This document shows positions 15,071 to 25,153 of a stretch of DNA of 64,000 bases, piece after piece. Position 1 is the stretch's first letter, and each line of letters begins with the position of its first letter. The notes below the pieces were generated by a model. It had not been told where the DNA came from and did no database searches. It worked only from the letters and a program-made list of their open reading frames with translations. The stretch is taken from positions 1-64,000 of the forward strand of contig JAUIHP010000019.1 in the NCBI GenBank assembly GCA_030431975.1. The letters are read 5' to 3'. Origin of the DNA: a bacterium (GTDB lineage Bacteria; Eisenbacteria; RBG-16-71-46; CAIMUX01). The translations under genes and the position numbers were made by a program.

Positions 15071-17998
15071 CTACCGCACGACAACGATCGTCTGAGTCCG
15101 CTCCGTCCAACCGCCTTCATCCCCGATTCGTGCCCGAAGGAAGTACTTCCCTTGCGGCACCAGCCCCGCATCCGCCCCCTCCAACGCCCAGCGCGCGACG
15201 TAGACCCCGATCGGAGCCTCATGCCGATGGCGCCACTGAATCCGCCCCGCGGCGTCGAAGATCTCGAGTTCGATCGACGCCGGACGCTCCAGGTTGAAGT
15301 GGATATCCACGGGCGAGTCGGTCGGGTTGTTCGAGATGTAGAACTTCGGCGTCGACAACTCCGTGGCCACATCCGTCACACCCGGTGCACATGGGTTGGG
15401 TTGACACGAGCTTCCGTCACCGAGGTACTCGCCGCGACAGGATTCGGAACGAGTCAGCCGGCACTCACCGTCCTCGAGACAACAGGCCCCGACGGGTGGA
15501 CAGGGGAAGGGATCGCAGGTCGTCCCATCTCCTTTGAAGAGTTCGGCACACAGAATGCCGTCGATGATGACGCACCGCCCGTCCGAGGTGCAGCAAGCTC
15601 CGGGTGGAGGGCAGACATTGGGTTCGCAGCTTGTTTCCGCGCCAAGGAATCTTCCCGGGCAGTCCAGCTCTCCGGTGATCTGGCACTGTCCCAACGGCAG
15701 GCAGCAGGCGCCGACACTGAACGGACAGGGGATCTCCGGGTCGCACACCGAGCTGTCGCCTTGGTAGGCGCCGTCGCATTCGGATCGTCTCGTGAGCACG
15801 CAGACCTGACCTTGCAGGCAGCAGGCACCGAAGGGATCCGCGAGGTCGCCAACGATCAGGCGAAGATAGGAGGGAGTCGTTTCCAGGAACTCGTGCCGTT
15901 CCTTGACGACGGTCCAGGCGAAGAACATGACGTCGGAATTGCGACCGTCCGGCAGCACGGTACCGTCCCCGTAGCTTTGGCCGCCGTCGTAGTCGCTCTT
16001 CATGAAGAAGGCGAACTCCAATCCGCCGAAGAAGTCGCCGTTGGGATCCCAACGTTGGTTGGCGGGTTGCCAAGAGTCGTCCTCGACGAAGTTGATGTTG
16101 ATGCGGCGGGGTTGGCTCGGATCCGAGACATCCCAGGCCGATCCGGGGAAGGTACCGATTCCACCCAGTGCGTAGTCGAGGTCGCGCCGGTAGGTCTGGC
16201 AGTACGACCACTCCGACTCTTCGTCGGTGAATCGGATCTCGATGTCCGAGACCTCGGACCTCTCCAACTCGGAACCGAAGAACGATTCGTAGCCGAGGCC
16301 GATTCCACCGTCGAACGCGCTCAGTGCGTACGGATACCCCCGCAGCCACCTGGGTTCGGGTTCCCATTCCCAGACGGTTCCGCTGCAGGACGTGGGTTGG
16401 CACTCGGTGCCGACTCCTTGAAAGACTCCGTCGCATTGATCGAGGAACGTCAGGGTGCAGTCGTCACCGGTGCAACAAGCTCCGACCAAGGGGTCCTCGC
16501 AGACCAGCGGTGTGCACGGCCACTCGTCGCCCTGATAGCTTCCATCGCACTCGTCTTCCCGGGTCAATGTGCATGTTCCATCTGTGCTGCAGCAGGCTCC
16601 GGAGACGTAGCAGGGATCTGGGTCGCAGGTTCGACCTACAAAGAAAACTCCTTCGCAGTCCGTTTCAGGTAGGACCAGACAGGTTCCGTCGGGGGCGCAA
16701 CAGGCGCCGTCCTGTCCCCCGACGATGGCTCGGAAGAGGCGAACCGAGTCTCCAGCTTGGCGTCGGAGCGCAGTGATGCTGTCGAGGCGATCCGCGCCTT
16801 GTGCCGCGACCACGGCGTAGGCGACGGTTTGCGTGTCGCCGGGAGCCATCGTAAACGGCCCGGAGTTGACCATGAAACGGCGATCGCCCGGCTCGGTGTC
16901 GATCCAGCCCGTCCCCGTGACAGGATCTCCGGTGACGGCGAAGCGGGTCGGCTCTCCGGTCGTTGGGTCGATGATGGGAGAACCGTCCGCCTCCAGCCCT
17001 TGCATGTAGTTGTAGCTCTCCAACGGTGTGTGCGGGTCGAATCCGTTGCTGTACCGAATGAATGCGGAGAGCGGCAGATTGCGGTGATCCGGGACGATGC
17101 GGCCGCTGACGTAGGCCTCTTCACCGGGAGCCGGAACGATGGGGCCTTGCAGCAATTGCACGCCGGCCGCGGGAGGGAACTCTTCGTAAAGGTCGTCGAA
17201 GTCATCTCCGTTGTAGACGTAACCCAACTCCAGGTCGAGGTCGCAACCGACAAGGTCGTCGTCCGACTGTCCCAAATCGGGGTCGCACCAGGCGGTCAGG
17301 AAGACCGAGTCGAGAACGGCTTCACCTTTGTGGATGACCTTCCATTCGAGAAAGACGACGTTCTGAAGTCCGGGTTCGGATCGCACGAAGGTCGTTTGCT
17401 GGACTTCCACTCCAAGCGGCACGGAGGCGCCGGCGTCGTTGGTGTGCCAGCTCGGATCTGCATCGTGAAACACAGCCCAGCAGGTCTGGTCGCCAAGGTG
17501 TCGTGGTTGGCCGAACTCATCGACGGGGGCTCCGTCTTCCACCGGCCAGTCCCGGTAGTCCGGGTTGGAGGTCGGAGTGTCTCCCGGCTCGATCTGGTAG
17601 GTTCTCCACTGCTGATTTTGTGCCCAGTTCTCATCCCAACTGCCATCGGCCTCGATTCGTCCACCGGCGAACTCAGACGAGTACTCGGCAACCGTGACAC
17701 GAGGCAGCTCCTCTCCTTCGGGCTTCCCACCGATGAAGATCCCCGCGGCGAAGAGAGCTCTGTTGTTCGTGCCGCGAGGAAAGACGAAACCGCCGTTCCC
17801 TGCCTCCACGTCGTAGGCAAACGACCCACGATTGGTCAGGACCATCTCCAGCGAGTCCGTCTCGACCCACGTGGAATTGTCAATGTCCTGGGTTCGGATC
17901 GGAAGATCGGCCGAAGGAGCGCCGTTGGAAGAAGAGGCGCCGAAGACAACGGCGACGATGCTGACGACGCAGCACAGCAGGGAAGGGGACGCCGACAT
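15071..17998 (-). CDS. Giant secreted protein with seven Cys-rich GACC repeats and FlgD-Ig-like C terminus
   Basis: 975 residues with a signal peptide (about 1-27). An N-terminal beta-rich region (30-425) resembles surface proteins with choice-of-anchor character. Then come seven repeats of about 33-35 residues with the pattern GACC-x(3-5)-C-x(7)-C-x-G-x(3-8)-C-x-P-x-C: three at about 428-535 and four at about 722-870, flanking a second beta domain. Each has six cysteines, probably three disulfides. The last 90 residues form a FlgD-Ig/T9SS-sorting-like sandwich (IELEIFDAAGRIQWRHRH, VPQGKYFLRARI). AAGGAG five bases upstream supports the start. It is probably displayed at the cell surface; ligand unknown. 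Confidence 0.75.
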   Translation of the reverse strand: MSASPSLLCCVVSIVAVVFGASSSNGAPSADLPIRTQDIDNSTWVETDSLEMVLTNRGSFAYDVEAGNGGFVFPRGTNNRALFAAGIFIGGKPEGEELPRVTVAEYSSEFAGGRIEADGSWDENWAQNQQWRTYQIEPGDTPTSNPDYRDWPVEDGAPVDEFGQPRHLGDQTCWAVFHDADPSWHTNDAGASVPLGVEVQQTTFVRSEPGLQNVVFLEWKVIHKGEAVLDSVFLTAWCDPDLGQSDDDLVGCDLDLELGYVYNGDDFDDLYEEFPPAAGVQLLQGPIVPAPGEEAYVSGRIVPDHRNLPLSAFIRYSNGFDPHTPLESYNYMQGLEADGSPIIDPTTGEPTRFAVTGDPVTGTGWIDTEPGDRRFMVNSGPFTMAPGDTQTVAYAVVAAQGADRLDSITALRRQAGDSVRLFRAIVGGQDGACCAPDGTCLVLPETDCEGVFFVGRTCDPDPCYVSGACCSTDGTCTLTREDECDGSYQGDEWPCTPLVCEDPLVGACCTGDDCTLTFLDQCDGVFQGVGTECQPTSCSGTVWEWEPEPRWLRGYPYALSAFDGGIGLGYESFFGSELERSEVSDIEIRFTDEESEWSYCQTYRRDLDYALGGIGTFPGSAWDVSDPSQPRRININFVEDDSWQPANQRWDPNGDFFGGLEFAFFMKSDYDGGQSYGDGTVLPDGRNSDVMFFAWTVVKERHEFLETTPSYLRLIVGDLADPFGACCLQGQVCVLTRRSECDGAYQGDSSVCDPEIPCPFSVGACCLPLGQCQITGELDCPGRFLGAETSCEPNVCPPPGACCTSDGRCVIIDGILCAELFKGDGTTCDPFPCPPVGACCLEDGECRLTRSESCRGEYLGDGSSCQPNPCAPGVTDVATELSTPKFYISNNPTDSPVDIHFNLERPASIELEIFDAAGRIQWRHRHEAPIGVYVARWALEGADAGLVPQGKYFLRARIGDEGGWTERTQTIVVVR

Positions 17999-18241: not shown

Positions 18242-19255
18242 TCAGCTGCGTGAAGCGGCTCGGATCAGCGCTTTGATGTTCTCGTCCGGAGTGTCCCAGG
18301 GAACTTCCGGCCCCTGATTGGAGAGAATGAACCCCGGCCCGGCTTCGTTGATCAGACGGCGGGCTTCGAACTCGACCCGCTCCGGCTCCCAACGCATGAG
18401 CTTCAGGTTGTTGACCGATCCCATGATCGCGCCTTTCCTGCCCAGAATCCGGCGGGCCTCTCCAAGCGGATCCTCTTCACCCAACAACCACAATGCGGGT
18501 CCGAGATCGCTGGCTGCGTCCAACATGGGCATGGCTCGCCCGACGAACTCAAAGCCGACGGGAGCGCCGATCTCTTCGATGAAGCGGCGGAGTACCGGAT
18601 GGGAGCAGCTACGGAACAGCTCCGGGTCGATGATCGAGGCCGAAGACGTTCCCTCAGCGAGCACGATGGCATCACACCCCGCGGCGATCTGTGCACGTCC
18701 CCACGACAGCGTGTACTCGAGCATCTTTTCCATCAGGGGATCGAACCACTGTTTGCGTTCGGATTCGGGCATCAGAAGCAGATCGAGAAACTTGCTCGTT
18801 CCCATGAGCATGGTCGGCAGTGAGAACGGTCCGATGAGTGCACCGACGATGAGACGGTCTCCTTTGACCTCTCGAGCCAGCTGTTCGGCGGAGCGTAGCG
18901 TGGCTTTGAGGTAGGGATGCGAGGTCGGATCGGGAACGACCAGATTCGGAATGTCCTCTTTGCTCGAAATGACCATCCCATTCACGGACGGCGGTCCGTC
19001 TGGATGGAAGTCAAGTCCGGCCCCCCAGGGCAGAACGTCCTGCACGATGTGGGGGAAGGCGTAGACGGCGTCGTGACCGAACGTCTCGATCAGGCCGAGT
19101 TGTCCCGAGGCGATCCGGTCGGGTGTTTCGAAGTAGGAAAGGAGATCGGTGCCCAGTGCCTTGGCTCCCTGCATGAGCATGACAGGCATGACGGGAGGAC
19201 GATCGGTTTCGCCGAGCCCGAGTGTGGTCAGAATGCGTTCCACGGCTGTCGTCAT
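18242..19255 (-). CDS. UroD/MtaA-fold corrinoid methyltransferase-like protein lacking zinc ligands
   Basis: 337 residues of the uroporphyrinogen-decarboxylase superfamily, on the MtaA/CmuA methylcobamide branch rather than HemE (the HemE RQAGR motif is absent). Family marks are the DRPPVMPVM start, CDAIVLAEGTSSASIIDPELF, and a terminal TPDENIKALIRA. The HxC motif that binds catalytic zinc in MtaA-type enzymes is replaced by EFV (in GFEFVGRAMPML, about 232-243), and the later cysteine position reads SNQGPEVPWDTP. It therefore either works without zinc or is a sensor or pseudoenzyme. It starts inside the stop of the chemoreceptor-cobalamin gene (ATGA), strongly implying a shared task involving a methyl-corrinoid. 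Confidence 0.8.
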   Translation of the reverse strand: MTTAVERILTTLGLGETDRPPVMPVMLMQGAKALGTDLLSYFETPDRIASGQLGLIETFGHDAVYAFPHIVQDVLPWGAGLDFHPDGPPSVNGMVISSKEDIPNLVVPDPTSHPYLKATLRSAEQLAREVKGDRLIVGALIGPFSLPTMLMGTSKFLDLLLMPESERKQWFDPLMEKMLEYTLSWGRAQIAAGCDAIVLAEGTSSASIIDPELFRSCSHPVLRRFIEEIGAPVGFEFVGRAMPMLDAASDLGPALWLLGEEDPLGEARRILGRKGAIMGSVNNLKLMRWEPERVEFEARRLINEAGPGFILSNQGPEVPWDTPDENIKALIRAASRS

Positions 19256-20760
19256 CGTGCGTTCACCTCCGCGTAGATGGAATCGACGAGGCGAATGGCG
19301 CCGCCGGGATCGGCAGCCACGCCGTCAGCTCCGAAACGGTGCCGCAAGTGGGGGTCGACGACGAAGGGCGCGCCTCCAACGATCACTTTGATGTCATCTC
19401 GGCCCCGCTTCTGCAACTCGGTCTTGAGCTCGGGGATGTGCTTGGCCGTGTGGAGCAGCAATGAAGAAACCCCGATGACTTTGGCGCCTTCTTTGATCGC
19501 CGTCTCCGCGAGAACTTCGTTTCGGACGCTGAGGCCGAGGTCGACCGTCCGGTAACCGGCAGCGTTCAGAGAAATGCTGATGATCCGACGACCCAGGTCG
19601 TGGAAGTCCTGCCACGCGTTTCCGAGTACGACACAGGGACGGTCGTCGTCCGAGGTGTGCCCGATGGATTCCTGCAGTCGACAGACAGCCTGCTCGAGGA
19701 TTCGGGCATTGCGGAAGTGCGCGATGGCAGGGGCGTCATTGGCCTGCCCTTGCATGACGGTAGCGGCCACCGTGCCGAGCCGATGGAGAAGCTCTTCGGC
19801 CGAGACTCCTGCAGCCAGTGCGGACTCGAGGGTCTTGGTCGCCAGAGGCGGATTGTCGTCCTGTAGCGCGCGGGACATCTGTGTTGTGAATGACTCCAGC
19901 GTCTGGGCGGCCGGTGGGTGCAGAGTATCCGCGTCTTTCCACTGCGTGTCGGCTTCGTCGCAGGTCAAGGAAATGTGCTGTAGCAGTGTGTCCGCAGCTT
20001 CGTGGACGTGTCCGGCGAACATCCCGGCCTGCTCGATGCTTTCCTGAAGTCCGACCTGTCCGTAGGCGATGGTCTCCACCTTGTGAGCCGCCTGGATGAC
20101 GTCGGCCGCTTCCGACGCCATGGCTTTCGACGCCGTGCTCAGTATCTCGAGGTTGCTCCGGGCGCTGGTCAGTCCGGTCCGGCTCGCCTCGAACCGTTCA
20201 CTGGTCCGGGTCAACGCCGAGGTGATGCCGTCCATGTTGCCGATGATTCCGTCGACGAGTTCGGTCGTACTGCGGGCAAGATCGCGGACCTCGCCGGCCA
20301 CAACCGCAAAACCCGCTCCCTGCTGCCCCGCTCGTGCAGCTTCGATTCGGGCATTCAAGGCCAACAGAGTGATTTGTTCTGCGACCCAGGCGACTTCCTT
20401 TGTCGAGCCTTGGATGCGGGTTTGGTACTCAGTGAGCCGGGTCAGTTCCTGATCGAACGCATCCACGTTCTTTGCAAATTCGTCGAGGGCGGAAACCGTT
20501 TCCTCGACGGCTCGCATCGTCGATTCCACCTGGGATCCGACGCTTTCGGCGACGTGGCTGAGTTCTTCGATGACGCCGGCAAAGCCGCCCTGAGCGGCGA
20601 CCTCGTTGGCCCGGCCCAGGATGTCCAGCAGGGCGCGGGTCGAACTTACGGCGTCGGAAGCGAGGGAGACCTGCTTGTGCAACTGTCGCGCCATGCGCGC
20701 GACGGCTGCCGCCGCGAGGTCAGAGTCATCGTTCGACACGAGAGCGAGTTCACTCGACAT
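19252..20760 (-). CDS. Soluble chemoreceptor signalling domain fused to cobalamin-binding module
   Basis: 502 residues, no signal peptide and no membrane helix. Residues about 30-265 form a methyl-accepting chemotaxis coiled-coil hairpin with the conserved tip NARIEAARAGQQGAGFAVVA then GEVRDLA (about 130-165). About 285-370 is a helical cap like the B12-binding-2 domain (ALQDDNPPLATKTLESALAAG). About 373-500 is a Rossmann cobalamin domain with the base-off D-x-H-x-x-G motif D385-F-H387-D-L-G390, and IKVIVGGAPF further on. The inference is that corrinoid state, perhaps its methylation, signals to the chemotaxis machinery. ATG 20760 has AGAGG eight bases upstream; the longer open frame is not supported. 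No cheA or cheW is present in the window. Confidence 0.87.
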   Translation of the reverse strand: MSSELALVSNDDSDLAAAAVARMARQLHKQVSLASDAVSSTRALLDILGRANEVAAQGGFAGVIEELSHVAESVGSQVESTMRAVEETVSALDEFAKNVDAFDQELTRLTEYQTRIQGSTKEVAWVAEQITLLALNARIEAARAGQQGAGFAVVAGEVRDLARSTTELVDGIIGNMDGITSALTRTSERFEASRTGLTSARSNLEILSTASKAMASEAADVIQAAHKVETIAYGQVGLQESIEQAGMFAGHVHEAADTLLQHISLTCDEADTQWKDADTLHPPAAQTLESFTTQMSRALQDDNPPLATKTLESALAAGVSAEELLHRLGTVAATVMQGQANDAPAIAHFRNARILEQAVCRLQESIGHTSDDDRPCVVLGNAWQDFHDLGRRIISISLNAAGYRTVDLGLSVRNEVLAETAIKEGAKVIGVSSLLLHTAKHIPELKTELQKRGRDDIKVIVGGAPFVVDPHLRHRFGADGVAADPGGAIRLVDSIYAEVNAR

Positions 20761-20981: not shown

Positions 20982-23900
20982 CTACCGGGCGATGACCAGC
21001 TTCCGAGTCAGATCCTGTCCAGCCACGCTCAGCTTGGTGTAGTAGACACCGGCCGGGAGCGAAGCTGCGTTGTCATTACGACCGTCGAACGAGACGACAT
21101 GGAAGCCGGCCTCACGGACACCCTGTGCCAGGGTCCGGACGAGACGACCCGCCGTGTCGTAGACGCTGAGGTTGACCTCACCATCCGTCGGCAGCGCGTA
21201 GACGATCTGGCTCTGCGCCGAGACCGGGTTCGGATACGGAGCGTAGAGCTGGAAGCTCGTGCTCATGTTGTCGAGCGGGCCCGTCTTGGCCGAACCGCGA
21301 GAGAGAATCTCGTTGAGGCTCGAGCGCAGGTCATAGGCCAGGTCGATTTCTTCGGTCGCAGCCGTCTTCATCCGGAAGGTCAGGTGCGCGAGCGCGCCGC
21401 TACCATCGACACCCGGCTGGGCCGAGTCGAGACGGTTCGCGGAAAGCTCCACCCAGCCCTCACCACTGCGGTCCAGGAACAGGAATCCCTGAGCCGAGCT
21501 GAAGAGGTTGCCCGGTCGTGCGTCGATCAATTCGATCTGGTCGACGTCGAAGCCGAAGTTGAGCAGGGCGCCGTTCAGGTCCTCGAGGTTCTCCGCAAGG
21601 ATGTCGACCTCGAAGGTCGCACCCGGCTTGGCCTCGTCGACGTGGCTTTCCACGTAGGCGTAGGCTGCGCCGGCGACTTCCGGTCCGAGGCTCGGACGGC
21701 TGTTGACGATGAACGGAACGGAGAGGTTCTCCCCACCATCCTCGACCGCCGGTGCTGCGCCGCCACTGCCGGTATAGCCGTTGGCTGCAGCCCAGGAGAA
21801 CATGGTCGTGAAGGTGACGATGTCTTCCACGTTCCAGGCGTTGTCGGGGTCCGAGACGACGTCCGGTGCGGTACCGCTGATCGGACCGATGTCGGCGATC
21901 GGGTCTCGCATGTTGCTGGCGCCGTTCCAACCCAGGGCAAAGATCATCTGGTCATCGAAGTTGATGAAACCATCCGGATCCGGGGTCATGGCCGGGACCG
22001 TCCCGCCTGCGCCCGCATTCGACGCGATGTCGGCGAGGTAGGCGATCTTGACCGTCATGTCCGTGTAGACGAGGTCACCGGACTCTTCACCGTTGATGTC
22101 CGAGAGGCCGCTGCCGGAGTTGTTGACCGCGAGGACCGACGAGTTGAACCGGTTGGTTTCGTCGATCGCGTTGGCCTTGGCCCGAACGGTAACGCTTGCC
22201 ACCGTGTGCGGACCGTTTGCGGTCAATCCACTCGGAGCGTCCAGAGCGGACGAAACGATGAGGAAGGTACCGTTCACGTTGTCGAACGTCTGCTCGAACG
22301 TGATGTTCGTCGCGCCGATCCCATCCCAAGCCGTGCCCCGGGTGATGTCGACGATCTCCAGAACGGAAGCATCGAAGGTTCCTTCGAATCCGACGGAGAT
22401 GACGCTGTCCGGGTAGAGGACGTTGAGGTCGACGACCCGCTCGAGGCTGTTCTGCAGGTAGAGAACGTTGTCTCCATCGATCCTGTCAGCCACGGCCATG
22501 GTCGGCAGCAGCGTCGAGTCGATGCAGAGCAGTTCGGTCGAGAGCGTCGCATCATTGGCAACCAGGTTGCCGGCACTGTTGTGCATCCGGGCGTACAGAT
22601 AATACGTTCCGTCTGCCGGAGTGCCGTCCGGCGAGCTGGCAAAGGTCCAGACCGCGGAGGTTGCCGTCGAGGAGATGCTTTCAGCCGTGAAGCAGAGCAT
22701 GGCCGTGTCGGAGTCGAAGGTCGACGCCGTGTCGTAGTAGAAGTCGATGTAGCCACCTTCCGGCACGTTCGTCGACGTCCAGGAGAACGTGTAGGAACCC
22801 GTCGGCGGGAAGCACTCGGGCAGGGCCGAGAAATCCATGGTAATCGTCGGCGTCGGGGACTCTTCGTACTTGGTAACGATGTTGCGGTGAGCATCGACCG
22901 TGTACCAGTCGAGGTCGTTCCCGTTGGCCAGGGCGGTCAGACCGGAAAGGTCGGAGTACTGGCCGAAACTCGAGCCGTTCGAACCCAGGGAAGAGTCGAA
23001 GGTCGGTGCCGTCGTACCGTTGACATCGCTGGCCTCGGTGTCATCGTAGATGACGACACGATCGCCGCCGTTGTCGACGACGCCCACCCAGACGTCCACC
23101 GGAGTGTTGCCGTCTGCAGCGACGAAGATGTCCGTCGGACCGCTGAGAACGTCCGTAGCCGAGCTGGCCACGCCCCACTCCGTGATGAACTCCATCCGGG
23201 CAGCGATACCGAGTGCGGCGTCGGCCGGGTGGAAGCGGAGCTTCTGGATGCGGCTGTTGCCGGTGTCGGAGACGTAGACATCGTACGCAGCGACCGTCGA
23301 GTTGTAGCGCGCAGCCACTCCCTTCGGTCCGCTGAAACGACCCTCACCCGTACCGCTCGTGCCGTAACGGAGAACGTCCGGAGTCGTGTCGTAGGTGTAC
23401 TCGAAGTCCGTGGAGGCGGGCGGCAGGGCGCCATGAATGCCGTCGCCGAAACGGATCATACCGTTGGTCCAGTCGACCTCGTAGACGTTGTCGCTCGGGC
23501 CGGCCGTCGAGATGTCATCGACGACGGTCCAAACGTCCGGCGTTCCGTCCGGATCGAAGGTGATGCTCGCGAGCGTACCTTCGGCGATCGGGAAAGCCGT
23601 TGTCCAGTAGGTCAGGTCCTCGGTGATCGTGGCCGGCGTCGTCTCGGAGTAATCCGTAGTTCCGGATCCACCGATGGCAGCACCCGGCTGGGCGTCGACG
23701 GTGCGTGTGTCACTGGCGAGCCAGCCACCCGTCATCGAAGCGACGTCCGGAGCACTCAGAACCTTGATCCGGTCATTACCGGTGTCAGCGACGAAGACAT
23801 AACGCCCGATCGTGGCCTGCGTGGTCGCGATGGTGTTCGACGCACCGACGGCCGCATTCAGAGGAAGCGACAGTCCCGGGATGCCGAGGAACGGATCCGA

Positions 23901-25004
23901 GAGGCTCGCGAACGCTGCGGTGTCCAAAAGGACGCGCCCGGTCGTGGCATCGGTGATCGAGACGTCCGTACCCGCCACGGTGACCGTGTAGGTGTGACCG
24001 GTGACCTGGCTGTCGTCGACGACGACGGCCGTGGCCTGATCAAACGGACCAGTGTCGTCTGCCGGTGTGACCGTGGCCCGGACCGATGCGCCGGAGCGCG
24101 CGACCGCCACGTCCCAGGGCGTGGAGAGCGCGTCTTCATACGTCTCACCGGCGGTGGCCGTACCTGCAACCGCGACGGTGTAGTAGAAGAGCTGATCCGT
24201 AGCGTCCGCGGCGTCCACGACGAAGAGATCGTCGGAAGTCGCCGTCTGCTCGTTCTGGATGACGGCCAGACCGCGCAGCTGCTCGAACGACGTCGGGCCA
24301 CCCGTAGCCTCGGTGATCTCGGTCAGGACCGGAGCAGCGCCGTTGCCCGTTCCGTAGTCGATGTCACCGACACCGAAAGCGTCCGTGGCGCCGGTCTGAT
24401 TGTCACTGGCCGCGTAGCGGATCGTGAATTCAGACGTCGCAGACAGCGAGTTCGCCGGAAGAGTGATCTCCGGCGCGTTCGTGGCGTCGTCGTAGTCGAC
24501 GGAAAAGACCTGATCTGCGGCGGTGAGGCCCGTCAGATCCGACTGGTAGGTCCAGGCGGTACCATCGACGCTGAGCGTGATGGAGCCCGGGACGATCCAG
24601 TTCGTCGCCGTCGCTGCCCACTCCGCCAGATAGACTTGATCGTTGTCCCACTGGCTGGCCGCAGTGACCGGCTCGGTCCAGGTGAACGCCGTCTCATCCG
24701 TGCTGACGTAGTAGCCGTTGGCCTCGAAGGCCTGAATCCGGTTGTTTCCGGAGTCGACGACATAGACGACATCGCGCTGTCCGGTCGCGTGCTCACGGGC
24801 CGCAATCGCGGTGGGACCGACAAATGGAAAGTCGATCGCCGGATTGTTGACCAGCTGCGGCGTGTCCGGATTGTTGACAACAGTAAACGTGGGGCCGTTC
24901 CATTCCAGGATCGGATCGTACTGGACGGCACCCCGCGTCACGGTGGCGACGGCTAGGAGCAGGATGACCAGCGTCCCCTTCATGACTTTGGTTCGCGTAA
25001 ACAT
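20982..25004 (-). CDS. Giant secreted NHL-propeller protein with cohesin-like, dockerin-like and FlgD-Ig modules
   Basis: 1340 residues. The signal peptide ends near TRGA at 24. Residues about 25-640 hold NHL/beta-propeller-type repeats (VYVVDSGNNRIQAFEANGYY, VFVADTGNDRIKVLS, VYVSDTGNSRIQKLRF), some separated by inserted beta domains. About 835-985 is a cohesin-like sandwich. About 988-1075 has two Asp-rich calcium-loop segments like dockerin/EF-hand (DPDGFINFDDQMIFALGW and DNAWNVEDIVTFTTMF). About 1105-1210 is a second cohesin-like domain. The last 90 residues are a FlgD-Ig-like sorting sandwich (SVYDTAGRLVRTLAQG, LPAGVYYTKLSVAG). AAAGGAGG seven bases before ATG 25004 fixes the start. It is probably surface-displayed. 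Confidence 0.82.
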   Translation of the reverse strand: MFTRTKVMKGTLVILLLAVATVTRGAVQYDPILEWNGPTFTVVNNPDTPQLVNNPAIDFPFVGPTAIAAREHATGQRDVVYVVDSGNNRIQAFEANGYYVSTDETAFTWTEPVTAASQWDNDQVYLAEWAATATNWIVPGSITLSVDGTAWTYQSDLTGLTAADQVFSVDYDDATNAPEITLPANSLSATSEFTIRYAASDNQTGATDAFGVGDIDYGTGNGAAPVLTEITEATGGPTSFEQLRGLAVIQNEQTATSDDLFVVDAADATDQLFYYTVAVAGTATAGETYEDALSTPWDVAVARSGASVRATVTPADDTGPFDQATAVVVDDSQVTGHTYTVTVAGTDVSITDATTGRVLLDTAAFASLSDPFLGIPGLSLPLNAAVGASNTIATTQATIGRYVFVADTGNDRIKVLSAPDVASMTGGWLASDTRTVDAQPGAAIGGSGTTDYSETTPATITEDLTYWTTAFPIAEGTLASITFDPDGTPDVWTVVDDISTAGPSDNVYEVDWTNGMIRFGDGIHGALPPASTDFEYTYDTTPDVLRYGTSGTGEGRFSGPKGVAARYNSTVAAYDVYVSDTGNSRIQKLRFHPADAALGIAARMEFITEWGVASSATDVLSGPTDIFVAADGNTPVDVWVGVVDNGGDRVVIYDDTEASDVNGTTAPTFDSSLGSNGSSFGQYSDLSGLTALANGNDLDWYTVDAHRNIVTKYEESPTPTITMDFSALPECFPPTGSYTFSWTSTNVPEGGYIDFYYDTASTFDSDTAMLCFTAESISSTATSAVWTFASSPDGTPADGTYYLYARMHNSAGNLVANDATLSTELLCIDSTLLPTMAVADRIDGDNVLYLQNSLERVVDLNVLYPDSVISVGFEGTFDASVLEIVDITRGTAWDGIGATNITFEQTFDNVNGTFLIVSSALDAPSGLTANGPHTVASVTVRAKANAIDETNRFNSSVLAVNNSGSGLSDINGEESGDLVYTDMTVKIAYLADIASNAGAGGTVPAMTPDPDGFINFDDQMIFALGWNGASNMRDPIADIGPISGTAPDVVSDPDNAWNVEDIVTFTTMFSWAAANGYTGSGGAAPAVEDGGENLSVPFIVNSRPSLGPEVAGAAYAYVESHVDEAKPGATFEVDILAENLEDLNGALLNFGFDVDQIELIDARPGNLFSSAQGFLFLDRSGEGWVELSANRLDSAQPGVDGSGALAHLTFRMKTAATEEIDLAYDLRSSLNEILSRGSAKTGPLDNMSTSFQLYAPYPNPVSAQSQIVYALPTDGEVNLSVYDTAGRLVRTLAQGVREAGFHVVSFDGRNDNAASLPAGVYYTKLSVAGQDLTRKLVIAR

Positions 25005-25153
25005 CGAGGTTCCTCCTTTGAACACTTCTCGGTGCGAATCGAAACAGGGCGGTTCGGTCTCAGGTGCAGATCCCGGGCCGTCACGTTCCCGAAGGTTTGG
25101 GGTGATGCGCAGGGACTTCCGTGTCGTTTTCTGGTCCATGTCCGGTCCTCCAG

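Follow-up and report, generated by a model that had tools for sequence, protein, structure and literature searches.

A soluble chemoreceptor carrying a methyltransferase-type cobalamin-binding domain in an Eisenbacteria genome, and its apparent kinship with a corrinoid-UroD cassette found next to signaling genes in many phyla

A 64,000-bp stretch of an Eisenbacteria genome (contig JAUIHP010000019.1, positions 1 to 64,000; hereafter the window) encodes a protein, P0002, in which an MCP signaling hairpin is joined to a cobalamin-binding module of the kind known from methyltransferase corrinoid proteins, and, overlapping its gene, a UroD-fold protein, P0001. We regard P0002 as a soluble chemoreceptor with a new input, and the wider corrinoid-UroD module, of which the pair appears to be a member, as the more novel possibility. 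The domain architecture of P0002 is well supported; what goes beyond this architecture and the gene order, including the type of signal (methyl/C1, redox or corrinoid supply), we infer. We put at about even the chance that P0002 is a soluble chemoreceptor taking its input from a methyltransferase-type corrinoid domain, with P0001 as the UroD-fold partner that sets or reads the state of the corrinoid, and the most likely signal would be the methylation or redox state of the corrinoid, i.e. the availability of a methyl (C1) donor.

The P0002 gene begins with an ATG at position 20760 and ends with a stop codon at 19252-19254, and its codon-position-3 GC profile is steady along the entire length (0.71-0.78), giving no sign of two genes joined by a frameshift. 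Since the frame is unbroken and, in the AF2 model, the domain boundary lies within a linker, we rejected a frameshift or assembly join as the origin of the gene; the two modules, as initially proposed from the sequence, are parts of a single continuous chain in which both Pfam domains exceed their cut-offs (Table 1).

Table 1. Position of the fusion gene, its partner gene and their parts in the window
Feature	Position	Strand	Evidence
MCP-B12 fusion gene P0002	19252..20760	(-)	single ORF, 502 aa; PF00015 and PF02310 both above cut-off
MCP hairpin, residues 61-233	20062..20580	(-)	AF2 helices 61-143 and 150-233, moderate confidence; PF00015 at 97-245
MCP signaling tip NARIEAARAGQQGAGFAVVA, residues 136-155	20296..20355	(-)	sequence; AF2 hairpin turn at 144-149
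Helical cap, residues 288-366, four helices	19663..19899	(-)	AF2; NCBIfam alignment from residue 293-297; alignment A8
Rossmann cobalamin-binding domain, residues 375-502	19255..19638	(-)	PF02310; AF2 pLDDT mostly >90; Foldseek
D385-F-H387-D-L-G390 motif	19591..19608	(-)	sequence; lower axial ligand of the cobalt expected to be H387
UroD-fold partner gene P0001, 337 aa	18242..19255	(-)	PF01208 E=3.9e-50; AF2 pLDDT 95
ATGA overlap of 4 bp, fusion stop / UroD gene start	19252..19255	(-)	sequence
GGAGG ribosome-binding site of UroD gene, within the final stretch of the fusion ORF	19266..19270	(-)	junction sequence

With its MCPsignal domain (71.2 bits against a cut-off of 34.6, E=1.2e-19), the conserved tip that the sequence-only reading had picked out, and the hairpin seen in the AF2 model, P0002 is an MCP, and its description as a soluble chemoreceptor is supported. 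The model also contains extra helices at residues 13-55 and 238-279. Its hairpin is less certain, with most blocks at pLDDT 59-74, since the AF2 input was an alignment of cassette B12 proteins into which MCPs could not be fitted; two MAFFT alignments in which MCPs and B12 proteins were mixed (A6 and A7) were discarded, as the MCP tips in them were misplaced. Sequence relatives in the PDB are MCPs for the N-terminal half of the protein and corrinoid proteins for its C-terminal half.

The B12-binding domain (PF02310) matches residues 377-483 with 73.7 bits against a cut-off of 32.1 (E=1.5e-20), and the best Foldseek matches for its fold are MttC, a Desulfitobacterium corrinoid protein, MtmC, MetH and CarH-type domains. 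The D-x-H-x-x-G motif of methyltransferase-type corrinoid proteins is in place, and P0002 is predicted to bind a corrinoid. H387 and G390 are invariant across 35 aligned proteins, all ten invariant columns of this alignment are kept in P0002, and the motif, with E allowed for D, is retained in each of 83 relatives. The cap is a different matter: the cap model B12-binding_2 (PF02607) gave no Pfam match in P0002 even at E<=10, and NCBIfam corrinoid models, while aligning across the cap, score far under their cut-offs. H348 of the cap does align with the conserved cap histidine of the main cassette clade (AQHF type). Thus, of the complete base-off module that had been claimed, the Rossmann half stands as intact, with its fold and histidine ligand preserved, while the cap is divergent and is seen by AF2 and weak NCBIfam alignment. 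P0002 shares with the MtaC/MtbC/MttC/MtgC proteins (TIGR02370) a predicted helical cap followed by a Rossmann domain with the same motif, as judged from NCBIfam-model alignment and fold matches, but differs from them in its scores, far below the family cut-offs, in its divergent cap, in its position behind an MCP hairpin and in its grouping with a separate cassette clade.

The coupling of the fusion to a UroD-like protein was also confirmed (Table 1), and P0001 is supported as a UroD-fold protein paired with a corrinoid protein. The best structural match of its model in the PDB is the methylcobalamin:CoM methyltransferase MtaA (4ay7, TM 0.90), and P0001 resembles MtaA/MtbA/CmuA-type methyltransferases both in fold and in the pairing with a corrinoid protein. 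Unlike in these enzymes, the three zinc-ligand positions (HxC...C) are occupied in P0001 by E, V and P, and it scores far under the corresponding NCBIfam cut-offs. An identity as an MtaA-type zinc methyltransferase is therefore not supported, and thiol-type methyl transfer by P0001 is unlikely because all three ligand positions are lost. None of the 82 cassette UroDs compared has the distal zinc cysteine at the aligned position, and in the tree P0001 lies at the base of these UroDs with moderate support (88 and 91). Large genes at 15071-17998 and 20982-25139 of the window, on the same (-) strand, flank the fusion/UroD pair on both sides, and appear from their sequence to encode secreted surface proteins whose C-terminal ends are of the sorting type.

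We searched for the same gene order elsewhere. In the phylum, the nearest relative of the B12 domain is a corrinoid protein of 222 aa that stands alone; behind its gene come those for a UroD relative, a DUF1638-like protein and a GAF-PAS histidine kinase. A search with the UroD partner revealed the corrinoid-UroD arrangement in other phyla as well. A scan of one genome per species, covering 84,980 species, matched 258 relatives, the best 80 of which were analyzed as loci; some come from related organisms and are not independent. In 79 of these 80 loci, distributed over many phyla, a stand-alone corrinoid gene is located directly 5′ of a cassette-type UroD gene, and in the 80th the contig ends after the corrinoid gene. 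Of these loci, 67 have at least 2.4 kb of downstream sequence, and in 61 of the 67 a histidine kinase or GGDEF gene lies within 2.5 kb downstream on the same strand (59 histidine kinase, 3 GGDEF). In control intervals around the same best 80 of 258 loci, such genes were found in 7 of 45 cases at 5-7.8 kb downstream and in 3 of 47 at 6.7-9.5 kb upstream. Within this set, DUF1638 is found downstream in 51/67 loci, a RACo/RamA-like activase upstream in 22/47, and one of three GAF-domain types on the downstream genes in 59/68; domains in representative loci were confirmed by Pfam. The six loci lacking a histidine kinase or GGDEF call comprise one with an HD-GYP protein, one with a HisKA_2 kinase, two in which the gene, read by eye, resembles a GAF-PAS sensor reaching the contig end, one with an apparent frameshift in DUF1638, and one from Helarchaeota (L123:10354-11421) in which the corrinoid-UroD pair has no adjoining signaling gene.

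The gene order in the window, where a cassette-type UroD comes immediately after a corrinoid domain, places P0002 and P0001 in this cassette. In the tree, the B12 domain of P0002 groups with the 84-row cassette clade as opposed to five canonical corrinoid proteins; it sits on a very long branch, however, so that its exact place is unsure. The signaling output of the window's cassette is the fused MCP, as opposed to the separate kinase or GGDEF genes of the other loci, and no kinase gene follows the corrinoid-UroD pair of the window. Conversely, no MCP was found as a cassette member among the best 80 of the 258 loci; the survey proposed in the sequence-only reading recovered the pair beside signaling genes in dozens of genomes, though without the MCP fusion. 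We think it possible, at slightly less than even chances, that a corrinoid protein and a zinc-less UroD make up a detachable corrinoid-state sensor, which in many phyla is connected to histidine kinases, diguanylate cyclases and HD-GYP proteins, and in this Eisenbacteria lineage to a chemoreceptor, with steering by C1/methyl or redox chemistry at the cobalt.

Further MCP-B12 fusions were found neither in 47 genomes of the phylum, nor in 385 sampled genomes, the best 80 of 258 loci, or plasmids. It should be noted that the degenerate pattern used in the 84,980-species scan is blind to P0002-like VGGAPFVVD, and that an exact-peptide scan yielded no relatives of P0002; the rarity of the fusion, known from one genome, is therefore likely but not proven. 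In the open-access literature we found no description of an MCP with a B12 domain, or of a corrinoid-UroD sensor or cassette, in line with the initial impression that no receptor of this build had been characterized. The closest likeness among chemoreceptors is to the CZB type, in which a soluble MCP hairpin also carries its sensing domain at the C-terminus, but the input is a zinc-binding rather than a corrinoid domain; one such protein (L181:6022-7200) is encoded in the window's own genome.

This genome does possess an array to which P0002 could report, as a search for cheA and cheW revealed CheA (with CheW domains), CheW, CheB and CheR clustered together with two MCPs, and Pfam confirmed the CheA, CheB and CheR domains; it also encodes an MCP with a Tll0287-like domain. 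In the simplest model for the cassette, the UroD-fold protein would handle a ligand or methyl donor that sets the state of the corrinoid, and the output protein would read that state. In the window, P0001 may dock on the corrinoid domain of P0002 in the way MtaA/MtbA-type enzymes dock on their corrinoid proteins, and could bind a C1/methyl compound or the upper face of the corrinoid, thereby setting or reading whether the cobalt is methylated, reduced or oxidized. The reader would be the MCP hairpin covalently joined to the corrinoid domain: a change in the packing of cap and Rossmann domain would be passed through residues 234-287 to the hairpin, and alter CheA activity.

The proposed link of such a receptor to corrinoid/C1 chemistry gains strong comparative support from the dozens of genomes in which the corrinoid-UroD pair adjoins signaling proteins, with corrinoid methylation as a candidate signal beside redox state and corrinoid supply. 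In P. inhibens, genetic evidence connects RamA-like and DUF1638 proteins with the reactivation of B12 (PMC5764234), so that the cassette corrinoid probably cycles between Co(I) and methyl states in many hosts, and the frequency of DUF1638 and RACo-like genes in the best 80 of 258 loci ties the module to such cycling. The split methionine synthase of Phaeobacter (PMC5764234) employs the same families as many cassette loci, namely a corrinoid protein, RamA-like and DUF1638 proteins, but is an enzyme without signaling proteins, and the window's genome has neither accessory family: RACo_C_ter and DUF1638 were not detected in this assembly, which is about 97% complete, so that a miss is possible. 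Their absence weakens the methyl-turnover reading for this particular host, where repeated Co(I) cycling is unsupported, and makes a slow single-turnover signal, or a redox/occupancy signal, also plausible. The long B12-domain branch, the divergent cap and the restriction of the fusion to a single genome likewise speak against the preferred reading.

The same absence, together with the lost zinc ligands of P0001 and the intact B12-binding residues of P0002, is compatible with a sensor of corrinoid supply or redox, in which cobamide occupancy or the Co(II)/Co(III) state, and hence oxygen or redox conditions, would be the signal, and P0001 would serve as a non-catalytic loader or holder. Other B12-domain proteins of the genome, including long ORFs reading as MetH-like and mutase-like, need a supply of corrinoid. 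We nevertheless consider such a sensor unlikely, as the family keeps the methyltransferase fold and often the reactivation proteins, for which simple occupancy sensing has no need.

The MtaA fold of P0001 and the reactivation proteins in many cassette loci would also fit a purely metabolic role, with the corrinoid-UroD pair as a C1 enzyme whose expression is controlled by the adjoining kinases, in the way MecA acts in the mec cassette, and with the MCP localizing the enzyme or reporting its substrate. One catabolic cassette is known to include a sensor kinase: in the mec cassette of anaerobic dichloromethane degraders (PMC9768040), corrinoid proteins and reactivation proteins are clustered with an MtaA/CmuA-type methyltransferase and a sensor histidine kinase. 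This cassette is the nearest precedent in the open-access literature for a kinase beside corrinoid methyltransferase genes. However, it is catabolic, with both MTI and MTII and its own PocR-domain kinase, whereas the window's pair is minimal and has its corrinoid domain built into the receptor. In the loci read in detail, a single corrinoid protein stands beside a single zinc-less UroD, and no second methyltransferase was recognized. This makeup, along with the regular proximity of a signaling gene (61/67, best 80 of 258), renders the metabolic alternative improbable.

Light, the other signal initially suggested, fared worse. If adenosylcobalamin were bound and its photolysis drove the receptor as in CarH, P0002 would join the CarH/LitR and photocobilin photoreceptors, with which it shares a B12-binding fold in a sensory role, and whose light-responsive CBDs occur in fusion with several other output domains (PMC11796333). 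The published light signature consists of GxxW, EH and GxxH, plus a fourth element, GxxxP (PMC11796333). The aligned residues of P0002 are Q/A, H/F and Q/H, so that, of the three elements scored, GxxW and EH are missing, as is the G of GxxH, and its nearest relatives pair with a methyltransferase fold, not with a photoreceptor output; P0002 further departs from the photoreceptors in its UroD-fold partner and MCP output. With the scored elements missing, we hold photoreception to be very improbable. Finally, a decayed fusion of a divergent B12 domain and a pseudo-enzyme with no present function might account for the very long branch, the cap under Pfam detection and the missing metal-ligand residues of P0001, but has the slimmest prospects, as both ORFs are intact with coding composition, all ten invariant columns are kept, and AF2 models both the B12 domain and UroD with confidence.

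If the preferred reading, a chemoreceptor informed by corrinoid state, is right, cobalamin chemistry beyond adenosylcobalamin photolysis would serve as a chemotaxis input, and far more widely, in methylotrophs, Geobacteraceae, Rhodocyclaceae, Magnetococcales, Chloroflexota, Bacteroidota and others, the same input would act on kinases and c-di-GMP enzymes. Many genes annotated merely as corrinoid protein, UroD-family protein or DUF1638 would thereby acquire a function, and the sensing of methylated compounds or corrinoid status by bacteria would become testable.

The cassette itself occurs in several forms. In the series L100-L179 (e.g. L107:8325-14244 and L131:8283-14638), it appears as a unit of RACo/RamA-like activase, corrinoid protein, zinc-less UroD, DUF1638 and GAF-domain histidine kinase, which is present in Methylococcales, Azonexaceae, Magnetococcales, Geobacteraceae, Spirochaetes and others, and has apparently been undescribed so far. 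In one family from the phylum of genome G106, DUF1638, GAF and GGDEF are combined in one protein behind the corrinoid-UroD pair (L071:8746-10998, L094:5977-8250 and L095:9643-11718), making c-di-GMP synthesis the likely output there. In a Thermotogales locus (L110:2316-4079), the place of the kinase is taken by an HD-GYP-type protein whose N-terminal GAF is of the same type, and a member of the Hyphomicrobiales (L150:9749-16625) has two tandem corrinoid-UroD cassettes from different clades. A sister group (L074, L093 and L099) combines a corrinoid protein and a UroD that keeps the distal cysteine with a RACo-like activase and either GAF/PAS kinases or a GGDEF protein.
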